NCBI RefSeq assembly: GCF_007556605.1
Contig: NZ_VJND01000001.1
Coordinates: forward strand, 1-64,000
Length of the DNA: 64,000 nucleotides
Direction of reading: 5' to 3'
Source of the DNA: Tepidimonas sediminis
Lineage (GTDB): Bacteria; Pseudomonadota; Gammaproteobacteria; Burkholderiales; Burkholderiaceae_C
Each line of letters begins with the position of its first letter. The first letter of the stretch is position 1. The notes under the pieces are model-generated. The model was not told the origin of the DNA. It was given only the letters and a program-made list of their open reading frames with translations, and did not search any database. Shown piece after piece: positions 11,887 to 56,727 of the stretch. The position numbers and the translations under genes were made by a program.

Positions 11887-12864
11887 TCACATCAGCAGGT
11901 GCTCGCCGGCGTTGTTGACGCCCAGGATCACGTAGTTGACGCGGCGGATGTCCATCAGCTGGGTGCCGCCGGCGTAGCTGATCGAGCTCTGCAGATCCTC
12001 CTGCATCTCGCGCAGCGTGTCCGCCAGCCGGCCCTTGATCGGCTCCAGGATGCGCTTGCCCTCGACGTGGCGCCGTTCGCCCTTGTTGAAGTCCGAGGCC
12101 GAGCCGTAGTACTCCTTGTACAGCCGGCCGTCGACCTCCACCGTCTGGCCGGGGGATTCCTCGTGGCCGGCGAACAGCGAGCCGATCATCACCATCGTGG
12201 CGCCGAAGCGGATGCTCTTGGCGATGTCGCCGTGCTCGCGGATGCCGCCGTCGGCGATGATCGGCTTGGTGGCCACGCGCGCGCACCACTTCAGCGCCGA
12301 CAGCTGCCAGCCGCCGGTGCCGAAACCCGTCTTCATGCGCGTGATGCACACCTTGCCCGGGCCGATGCCGACCTTGGTGGCGTCCGCCCCCCAGTGCTCC
12401 AGGTCGATCACCGCCTCGGGCGTGCCGATGTTGCCGGCGATGACGAAGCTGCCCGGCAGCCGCTCCTTCAGCAGCGCGATCATGCGCTGCACGCTGTCGG
12501 CGTGGCCGTGCGCGATGTCGATCGTCACGTACTCCGGCACCAGGCCCTCGGCCGCCAGCCGCTGCACGGTCTCGACGTCGGCCGGCTTGACGCCCAGTGA
12601 GATCGAGGCGTACAGCCCGCGTTCATGCATGCGGCGCACGAAGGCGACGTTGTCCACGTCGAAGCGGTGCATCACGTAGAAGTAGCCGTTGGCCGCCAGC
12701 CAGCGCGCGATCGGCTCGCTGATGACCGTCTTCATGTTGGCCGGCACCACCGGCAGGCGGAAGCGCCGCGGCCCGAAGGTCACGCTGGTGTCGCACTGCG
12801 AGCGGCTTTCCACGCGGCACTTGCGCGGCAGCAGCAGGACGTGGTCGTAGTCGAAGATTTCCAT
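11887..12864 (-). CDS. guaC: GMP reductase
   Basis: This 325-residue TIM-barrel oxidoreductase converts GMP to IMP and ammonia with NADPH. The catalytic-cysteine loop is [17 protein letters not shown] (about 167-183), which in this branch separates GMP reductase from IMP dehydrogenase. There are no CBS domains, and length equals the short GuaC type. The N terminus [16 protein letters not shown] fits the family, so ATG 12864 is chosen over a GTG four codons upstream. No Shine-Dalgarno is visible. A terminator-like hairpin with six T lies immediately upstream and may attenuate transcription or stabilise the 5' end. Confidence 0.92.
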
Positions 12865-12876
12865 GGCGGCGGACAC

Positions 12877-12907
12877 AAAAAACCGGGCTGGCGGACGCCG
12901 GCCCGGT
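12877..12907 (-). terminator. Intrinsic-terminator-like hairpin just upstream of guaC
   Basis: On the minus strand ACCGGGC and GCCCGGT arms continue inward to GGC/GCC with a four-base loop, giving an almost unbroken stem of about 10-11 pairs, and are followed by six T (12882 to 12877). It ends 12 bases before the guaC ATG. A TAGAAT hexamer (minus, 12918 to 12913) would start transcription near 12906, that is at the first base of the hairpin. Confidence 0.7.
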
Positions 12908-12986
12908 GGCCGATTCTAGTCCGCCGGTGCTAGCATCGGGAGACTCGTTTCCGGCTCCCTTGGCGTTCCAGGCCGTCCGTCGCCGC

Positions 12987-13850
12987 ATGAATCCCTCCAC
13001 CCTGATCGGCATGATCGCCAGCGTCGCGCTGCTGGCGGTGCTCATCTTCTTCGCCGCCGACGATCCATGGCTGTTCGTCGACCTGCCGGGGCTGGGCATC
13101 GTGCTGGTCGGCACGATGGCCGCCACCTTCCTCAGCTACCCGATGAAGGAGGTGCTGCGCGTCTTCGGCCTGATCCGCATCGTGATGCGCAACGAGCGCC
13201 TCTACACCCAGCGCGACATCGAGGAGCTGGTCGACATCTCGCGCCTGTGGATGCGCGACGACCCGGTGGCGGTGGAGCGCGCGCTGCCACGCGTCAACAA
13301 CCCGTTCCTGCGCACCGGCGTGCAGCTGGTCATCGACCGCATCCCGGAAGAGGACATCCTCGACCTGCTGCAGTGGCGCATCTCGCGCATGAAGGCCAAG
13401 GAGGCCGCCGAGGCGCAGCTGTTCCGCGTCATGGCCAGCTACGCGCCGGCGTTCGGCATGATCGGCACGCTGGTCGGGCTGATCAACCTGATGGACGTGG
13501 TGGCCAGTGGCGATCTGGTCGTCATCGGCCGGCATCTGGCGGTGGCGCTGATGACGACGTTCTACGGCATCCTGCTGGCCAACCTGGTCTTCAAGCCGGT
13601 GGCGGTCAAGCTCGAGCGCCGCACCGAGCAGCGCGTCGTGCTGATGAACATGGTGCTGCAGGGCATCTCGATGATGTGCGCCAAGCGCAGCCCGTCGCTG
13701 ATGCGCGAGACGCTGAACTCCTTCGTCGCGCACGTCGACGACGAGATCCATGACCAGGGCAGCGCCCCCGCGGGTGGCAACGGCGCGGCGAGGTCAGCGG
13801 GGCGTGCGGGCGCGCCGGCCAACGGTGGTGCCCGCCCGCCGCAGGGGTGA
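12987..13850 (+). CDS. motA: MotA/PomA-type stator protein
   Basis: This 287-residue inner-membrane protein has four hydrophobic helices (about 3-22, 30-50, 150-170 and 185-205). The helix 3 segment SYAPAFGMIGTLVGLINLM is the conserved proline-containing part of MotA. MotA forms with MotB the ion channel that powers the flagellar motor. The C-terminal tail from residue 255 is a low-complexity Ala/Gly/Pro stretch. The motB-like gene follows after 6 bases. No other flagellar gene is in the window, so the pair is a solitary stator set; it could be a second stator or feed a distant flagellar cluster. Confidence 0.86.
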   Translation: MNPSTLIGMIASVALLAVLIFFAADDPWLFVDLPGLGIVLVGTMAATFLSYPMKEVLRVFGLIRIVMRNERLYTQRDIEELVDISRLWMRDDPVAVERALPRVNNPFLRTGVQLVIDRIPEEDILDLLQWRISRMKAKEAAEAQLFRVMASYAPAFGMIGTLVGLINLMDVVASGDLVVIGRHLAVALMTTFYGILLANLVFKPVAVKLERRTEQRVVLMNMVLQGISMMCAKRSPSLMRETLNSFVAHVDDEIHDQGSAPAGGNGAARSAGRAGAPANGGARPPQG

Positions 13851-56400: not shown

Positions 56401-56406
56401 TACAAT
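56401..56406 (+). promoter_or_regulatory. -10 element of the cobalamin operon
   Basis: TACAAT lies about 10 bases before the riboswitch. Together with the minus-strand TACAAT of the zapB-like gene it makes a divergent promoter pair 22 bases apart. Confidence 0.6.
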
Positions 56407-56414
56407 GATCTCCG

Positions 56415-56636
56415 CGTTGGTGCTCGCGCCGTCCGTCCGTGGCGGCGCAGTTAAACGGGAAGCTGGGGGGTGGTACGCCGTGCGGCATACCGCCTAACCA
56501 GCGCTGCCCCCGCAACGGTAAGTGGACGTCGCCGCGCCCCGCGGCGCGGTGGCCGCTGCCGGCTCCATGCCACTGGGTGCTGCGCCACCCGGGAAGGCGC
56601 CGGCGGTCGTCTCCACCAGCCCGGATACCGGCCAAC
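56415..56636 (+). ncRNA. Cobalamin (adenosylcobalamin) riboswitch
   Basis: The hallmark segments are present in order: TTGGTGCTCGC, AGTTAAACGGGAAGC, CAGCGCTGCCCCCGCAACGG followed by TAAGT, GCCACTGGGTGC, CGGGAAGGCGCCGG and GCCCGGATACCGGCC. This aptamer binds B12 coenzymes and lowers expression of uptake and salvage genes. It begins just after the TACAAT promoter and ends about 90 bases before the btuB ATG, leaving room for an expression platform that could hide the ribosome site. The whole 364-base gap before btuB is explained by promoter plus riboswitch. Confidence 0.95.
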
Positions 56637-56727
56637 GGGGTGGCGCCGGGGTCTCGGCCGCGGCGCCGTGTCGCCCAGACACCGTCGGGGAGGGCGGTGA
56701 GGGCTCGTCGATGTCCTTCGATCCGAT

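Follow-up and report, generated by a model that had tools for sequence, protein, structure and literature searches.

Here we report that guaC, the gene for GMP reductase, is preceded in Tepidimonas sediminis and across its family by a conserved block composed of a -10 element, five further nucleotides, the inverted repeat ACCGGGC...GCCCGGT and a T-tract. The hairpin found in the window, by which we mean the whole 64,000-nucleotide stretch of DNA analysed, is confirmed as a real feature, since its conservation at guaC throughout the family excludes chance as its origin. Our leading but still tentative interpretation, held at a little below even chances, is that the block may be a promoter-proximal attenuator of GMP reductase that is set by the choice of transcription start site.

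A terminator-type hairpin at the guaC start

The guaC gene of the window occupies positions 11887-12864 of the minus strand and encodes a GMP reductase of type 2 (TIGR01306, 535.5 bits against a cutoff of 465.65; NF003966, 583.1 bits against a cutoff of 344). Its closest named relative found is the protein of Tepidimonas ignava, with 93% identity, the window's own species having possibly been left out of that comparison. The divergent neighbour, a motA-like flagellar stator gene at 12987-13850 on the plus strand (ATG at 12987 picked by eye; its best matches, to MotP/MotA/PomA models, fall short of the curated cutoffs), lies outside the element.

Read along the minus strand, the guaC leader consists of TAGAAT, CGGCC, ACCGGGC, C, GGC, GTCC, GCC, A, GCCCGGT and TTTTTG, in this order. 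TAGAAT (12913-12918) is the -10 element of the guaC promoter and is separated by 5 nt from a terminator-type hairpin at 12882-12907, which comprises 10 pairs and one C.A mismatch. The 5' arm, here called A (ACCGGGC, 12901-12907), forms seven pairs with the 3' arm A' (GCCCGGT, 12882-12888); the mismatch 12900/12889 interrupts the stem, which continues as a distal 3-bp stem (12897-12899 with 12890-12892) closed by a GTCC loop (12893-12896). Six T residues follow at 12877-12882, the first of which closes the stem by pairing with A12907. The preliminary description of a nearly unbroken stem with six T on the guaC strand is thus borne out.

Exactly 12 bases (12865-12876) separate the T run from the ATG, and by eye they hold no Shine-Dalgarno-like sequence, just as had been described; a promoter downstream of the hairpin, which would have spoken against the earlier proposal, finds no room in these 12 nt. 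The translation start region (12862-12876, minus strand) contains an in-frame GTG (12876-12874) in addition to the ATG (12864-12862), and the segments C, D and E found in relatives are absent from it. Because this GTG falls within the 12 bases that precede the ATG, the start codon of guaC is uncertain: it adjoins the T-tract four codons 5' of the ATG, and either may be the true start. In T. ignava (locus L034) a GTG occurs at the same place, three codons 5' of the ATG.

Folding of the 32-nt hairpin gave a minimum free energy of -20.1 kcal/mol, a stability reached by none of 200 shuffled sequences (z -4.2). The 55-nt span of the preliminary description (12864-12918) gave z -1.7, with 8 of 200 shuffles equally stable, and longer cuts also stood out less than the hairpin (z -2.5 for 96 nt and -1.7 for 146 nt). 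The plus strand folds more strongly (-24.6), with G.U replacing C.A, and has no T run 3' of the stem; the terminator geometry is therefore confined to the guaC-strand RNA, and a bidirectional terminator is ruled out. A GC-rich stem with an immediate U-tract, the feature of an intrinsic terminator, is present in the window, and RNA release at this site is predicted. The output of a simple terminator scan did not include the window hairpin, presumably because of the C.A mismatch.

Distribution and conservation of the promoter and hairpin block

We collected guaC loci from relatives together with loci holding a hairpin pattern; the guaC start was readable in 142 of 143 loci, three of which are the window's own. 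From 142 loci we obtained 121 distinct leaders with a -10-like box and the hairpin, a set that omits identical leaders, L009 (which has another stem), and L096, L103 and L113, which have N runs or a contig end and showed no element. A covariance model, R1, comprising the -10 element and the hairpin, was built from 56 sequences. Searches over more than 40 genomes, namely those at family, order and class level, apply stricter filters by which weak matches are lost.

Of 200 family genomes, 142 were matched by R1, each of them once, and 162 of the 200 contain a strong match to guaC (E <= 1e-100). In all 134 genomes for which the coordinates of both the element and guaC were listed, the element lies 5' of guaC on the same strand, 1-222 nt away (median 88.5). 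For the remaining eight elements, guaC was read as adjacent in G083, G166, G151 and G131, its coordinates are known in G027 and G028, and G143 and G175 fall at contig ends, the guaC start of G175 (L119) being nevertheless readable. A strict pattern gave one match in the window's own genome; this, with the single R1 match in each of the 142 family genomes, rules out a general repeat. At order level 8 of 250 genomes matched, seven of them belonging to the family, with the window's own genome among these, and one, G379, to another family, again with guaC downstream of the element; at class level there were three matches in 274 genomes, all in family members. A search of plasmid DNA returned distant partial matches only. 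The stem is kept in close and distant relatives alike; its absence among close relatives would, according to the preliminary description, have refuted the proposal.

Among the 150 guaC genes listed for the family genomes, 16 had no R1 match, and in 10 of 15 loci fetched from R1-negative guaC genes no hairpin block could be seen by eye, two of them keeping TAGAAT; guaC can therefore do without the element. In four loci (L157, L174, L078 and L009) the stem is rebuilt in other letters, as in ACGGGCGCT/AGCGCCCGT of L157, starts between positions 6 and 9, counted from the -10 element, and is followed by a T-tract.

A T-tract, defined as at least 5 T among the 8 nucleotides after the stem, is present in 112 of the 121 distinct leaders, in agreement with the earlier grading of the hairpin as terminator-like. 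The other nine leaders retain the hairpin, so termination is not the sole output, and they would have to act by another one, perhaps through the pairing of A' with the downstream segment C described below. Covariation between A and A' amounted to one two-sided change, which is at chance level (129 of 500 shuffles had as many), and arm A hardly varies.

Promoter geometry and candidate start sites

The distance between the -10 element and the stem is exactly 5 nt in 121/121 distinct leaders (the search pattern allowed 4-6), which places the predicted RNA start at the hairpin, as had been proposed from TAGAAT in the window. The -10 element reads TAGAAT in 90 leaders, TACAAT in 15, TAAAAT in 10, TAAACT in 3, TATAGT in 2 and TATAAT in 1. 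The pattern fixed letters 1, 2 and 4 and allowed T or C at letter 6, and barred only T from letter 5, which is A in 116 of 121; the covariance model recovered the -10 element again in 130 distinct blocks. No conserved -35 element was seen in the 121 leaders.

Counting from the -10 element, the start region reads Y5 A6 C7 C8 G9 (C12908, A12907, C12906, C12905 and G12904 of the minus strand; 12904-12908), with A6 (ATP) and G9 (GTP) as candidate starts. Position 5, unrestricted by the pattern, is a pyrimidine in 121/121 leaders, whereas A6 and C7 occur in 120/121 each under a pattern that allowed A or G and C or T, respectively; the pattern prescribed the letters at positions 8-10, 12 and 13, so that positions 6-13 were fixed or narrowed. 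A letter-free check gave Y5 in 130, A6 in 129, C7 in 127, C8 in 129 and G9 in 129 of 130 distinct model matches, although the underlying model was built from pattern-chosen sequences and leans toward those letters. These matches were aligned from 182 loci, one of the 130 being misplaced (L143, 315-345), and L009, L157, L159 and L165 gave no model match at E up to 1.

According to the available part of PMC5730371, position 7 is favoured for initiation, a purine after a pyrimidine is preferred, followed by G, and the concentration of the initiating NTP matters. Because positions 7 and 8 are C, C5-A6 and C8-G9(-G10) are the two good initiators. Against a choice between them stand the location of G9, 2 nt beyond the preferred position, and the lack of a G after A6. 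As judged by sequence geometry, candidate alternative starts that bear on the hairpin are present 6-9 nt beyond the -10 element.

A second leader part and its loss in the window lineage

Most of the leaders read contain a second conserved part between the hairpin and the start codon, consisting of segment C (ACCGG..CC.. followed by CCAAGCGCYC or a variant of it), a small hairpin that varies, and segment E (GGAGCUUGG or GGAGCCUGG), which includes the Shine-Dalgarno sequence. By pattern it was found in 124 of 145 distinct leaders, a set that omits 15 loci without matches and counts L038 as long form through a loose pattern only. Ten of the 121 leaders lacked segment C by pattern, leaving 111; two of the ten (L022 and L136) have a variant C.

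Segment C resembles the 5' arm and is able to pair with A', in competition with the hairpin. Matched A':C duplexes were stronger than mismatched ones (z -6.5 for 111 leaders, -4.8 for 78 clustered leaders and -5.2 over 43 types of A'), and for 28 of the 43 A' types the own C paired better than the other C segments did on average. The control pairings A:E, A':E and A:C gave null results, among them A:E as the reason for the conserved CCCAA, while C:E covaried weakly (z -2.9 for 111 leaders, -2.8 for 78 clustered and -2.7 over 98 types of E). Since the leader sequences are related, all these z-scores overstate independence.

In all 111 leaders CAAG(C/T) is followed by G and three pyrimidines; the pattern excluded G from the first of the three and left the second and third unrestricted. 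RNAalifold suggested a fold in which GGGC of arm A could pair with this GYYY; it was favoured in 1 of 111 leaders started at A6 and 20 of 111 started at G9. The consensus of 35 long leaders contains four pairs, none with a two-sided change, and no conserved multi-stem aptamer.

The window lineage is without the second part; it has lost this part of the leader and retains the transcriptional half, promoter and terminator, alone. The distal stem is variable in the 21 distinct leaders that lack it. With the exception of L166, all of these (20 of 21) still form a hairpin close to the 5' end, its stem beginning at G9 in L009 and further 5', at position 7, in L157. With the second part present, the loop bases C14, A15 and A16 are found in 120, 123 and 122 of the 124 leaders, versus 9, 4 and 8 of the 21 without it, and seem therefore to be held by that part. 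A6 and C7 are each retained in 19 of the 21, so the start-proximal bases seem to be held by something else. The idea that each lineage retains either the T-tract or the downstream part was dropped, as L163 and L166 have neither.

Two leaders from small genomes (L159 of G187 and L165 of G062) carry ACCGAGCCCAAG and the CCAAGUGCUC part without a 3' terminator arm, and the second part may work alone in leaders of this type. By eye, extra stretches of inverted repeat occur between the hairpin and segment C in L053, L068, L095, L177 and L179-L181; those of L053 and L068 carry a T run of their own.

Predicted folding from alternative starts

Moving the modelled start from A6 to G9 removes three pairs (A-U, C-G and C-G) adjoining the U-tract. 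The minimum free energy of the window hairpin changes from -19.5 to -13.8, and the mean across leaders from -16.1 to -10.5. In the long form, the same shift lowers, in the equilibrium model, the median A:A' pairing from 9.4 to 2.3 bp and raises A':C from 0.5 to 5.9 bp. For 45 of the 111 native leaders the model predicts that A:A' as the dominant fold is replaced by A':C, as compared with 130 of 444 in which C was taken from another type and 78 of 444 in which it was shuffled, a modest excess of native over swapped C in this model. Of the 66 native leaders that do not switch, 40 always form A:A', 25 always A':C, and one switches in reverse.

A G9 start did not raise the accessibility of the Shine-Dalgarno sequence in the equilibrium model (mean 0.25 from A6 and 0.21 from G9 over 111 leaders): accessibility rose by more than 0.1 in 6 of 111 and fell in 20. 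A translational readout is thus not supported by equilibrium folding, and a translational switch through C:E, in which CCAAGC would pair with GCUUGG over the Shine-Dalgarno sequence, is not favoured, since the equilibrium fold on a G9 start leaves that sequence unfreed.

Proposed mechanism

We favour attenuation because of the T-tract (112 of 121 leaders) and the placement of the stem, and the initiating nucleotide as its sensor because of the geometry of the start. RNA polymerase would choose between the initiators C5-A6 and C8-G9. Initiation at A6 by ATP, or at C7 by CTP, would give a complete hairpin adjoining the U-tract, and most such RNAs would end after about 31 nt, whereas a start with GTP at G9 would give an RNA lacking the three U-tract-side pairs and hence poor termination; in the long form started at G9, A' would also be free for pairing with segment C. 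The loop bases C14, A15 and A16 of the long form are not accounted for by this scheme. When GTP is high in relation to ATP, more GMP reductase would accordingly be made, draining GMP to IMP, and an ON state started by GTP fits because the enzyme converts GMP to IMP. A purine-responsive attenuator, one of the roles put forward in the preliminary description, therefore survives as the best reading of the element; no purine aptamer was found, and the presumed link to purines comes from the identity of the gene and from the A and G start positions.

Alternative explanations

A leader RNA switched by a ligand or a protein, be it an unrecognised riboswitch or the site of an antitermination protein, could act through C/D/E or the nascent 5' hairpin on termination or translation. 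It would account for the conserved bases that have no settled partner (CAAGYG with three pyrimidines in 111/111, and CCCAA in the region of positions 12-16), for the contested pairings and for the purine gene downstream. We nevertheless regard it as unlikely: the 35-leader consensus offers no multi-stem aptamer, segment C lies downstream of the T-tract and is therefore unable to steer termination there, and the window lineage lost the C/D/E part yet kept the hairpin. Rfam matches are likewise absent from the leader. Rfam 15 at the gathering threshold gave none in the guaC leader of the window, and among its six matches at E up to 5 in the loci of five relatives none lay in a guaC leader, a tRNA alone exceeding its gathering score. 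Far from guaC, the window contains a cobalamin riboswitch (56401-56650, plus strand), which scores 60.3 bits where the gathering score is 31.5.

In 121/121 distinct leaders the predicted +1 is where the stem starts, and the stem persists in the nine without a T-tract, as would suit a hairpin that protects the 5' triphosphate against RppH and RNase E. This role, which had also been suggested earlier, leaves unexplained the near-invariant 5' arm, the A':C competition and the T-tract found in 112 of 121 leaders, and we judge it somewhat less probable still than a ligand- or protein-switched leader. The GGGC at positions 9-12 stands at a usable distance from the -10 element with a terminator near the start, so that a G9 start could in principle lead to slippage, the added G residues blocking the terminator arm. 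At pyrG, reiterative starts prevent attenuation according to the available parts of PMC4403831 and PMC4448216. Control of the pyrG type is improbable here, as the conserved Y5-A6, with A6 giving an earlier possible start than the GGGC, would go unexplained and a logic of CTP shortage is mismatched to GMP reductase. A promoter with an immediate terminator and a near-invariant 5' arm, loop bases included, could also describe a gene for a regulatory small RNA of about 31 nt with guaC served by read-through, but the tie to guaC in 134/134 checkable genomes and the single match per positive genome make this very improbable. As for a barrier against transcription entering guaC from its neighbour, the earlier suggestion of a block against antisense transcription from motAB has in its favour that the window hairpin is flanked by the divergent genes guaC and motA; as a general role it fails, because among 16 loci viewed the element persists beside other upstream genes (the four neighbours compared with Pfam being a Cache receptor, a UvrD helicase, an FtsX permease and one without a match) and because a hairpin that sits after the guaC promoter would block guaC's own RNA too. 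We give it hardly any credence.

Comparison with known systems and implications

In pyrC and pyrD of E. coli and Salmonella, adjacent alternative starts lie a few bases after the -10 element, and the upstream start completes a hairpin that the downstream G start does not. At pyrC the choice senses CTP versus GTP, and the hairpin blocks translation. The proposed choice at guaC would similarly decide the completeness of a 5' hairpin; in contrast to pyrC, its putative signal is ATP versus GTP and its hairpin carries a U-tract. A pyrC-type change of Shine-Dalgarno accessibility with start choice was not found in the equilibrium model, and the window has no Shine-Dalgarno sequence. Purine, PRPP and ppGpp riboswitches control purine genes from the leader, often with a terminator, whereas the guaC leader has no aptamer match in Rfam 15. 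The ompA leader has a classic stabilising stem at its extreme 5' end, a position that the guaC hairpin shares; the T-tract and the competing downstream segment set guaC apart. The pyrG leader couples a GGGC start to a start-proximal terminator. In Bacillus subtilis, pyrG is controlled by CTP-sensitive reiterative-transcription attenuation, according to those parts of PMC4403831 and PMC4448216 that were available. As far as these parts go, the two systems are alike in that a nucleotide-metabolism gene would be subject to attenuation tied to the transcription start, and differ in that pyrG adds 5' nucleotides to prevent attenuation, whereas in guaC the 5' arm of the terminator would itself be the start site.

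We found no description of a guaC leader in betaproteobacteria in the literature covered, mostly titles and openings of abstracts, with subscription papers largely outside its scope; a term search of the available part of PMC2864571 gave no mention of guaC or GMP reductase.

Start choice as the sensor of the guaC attenuator, if true, would unite start-site switching and attenuation, two devices that are known separately, and would make it simple to test whether the ATP:GTP ratio is sensed through the initiating nucleotide, with more than 100 natural variants already supplied, including lineages without one part or the other. With roughly one chance in three in our estimation, hence more doubtful than attenuation by start choice as such, the block may serve the whole family as an aptamer-free ATP:GTP sensor in which the first base would set the terminator and, for leaders of the long form, which of the two near-isoenergetic folds A:A' and A':C is adopted. 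If so, the RNA would record the purine balance of the cell at the moment of initiation and tune GMP reductase to it.
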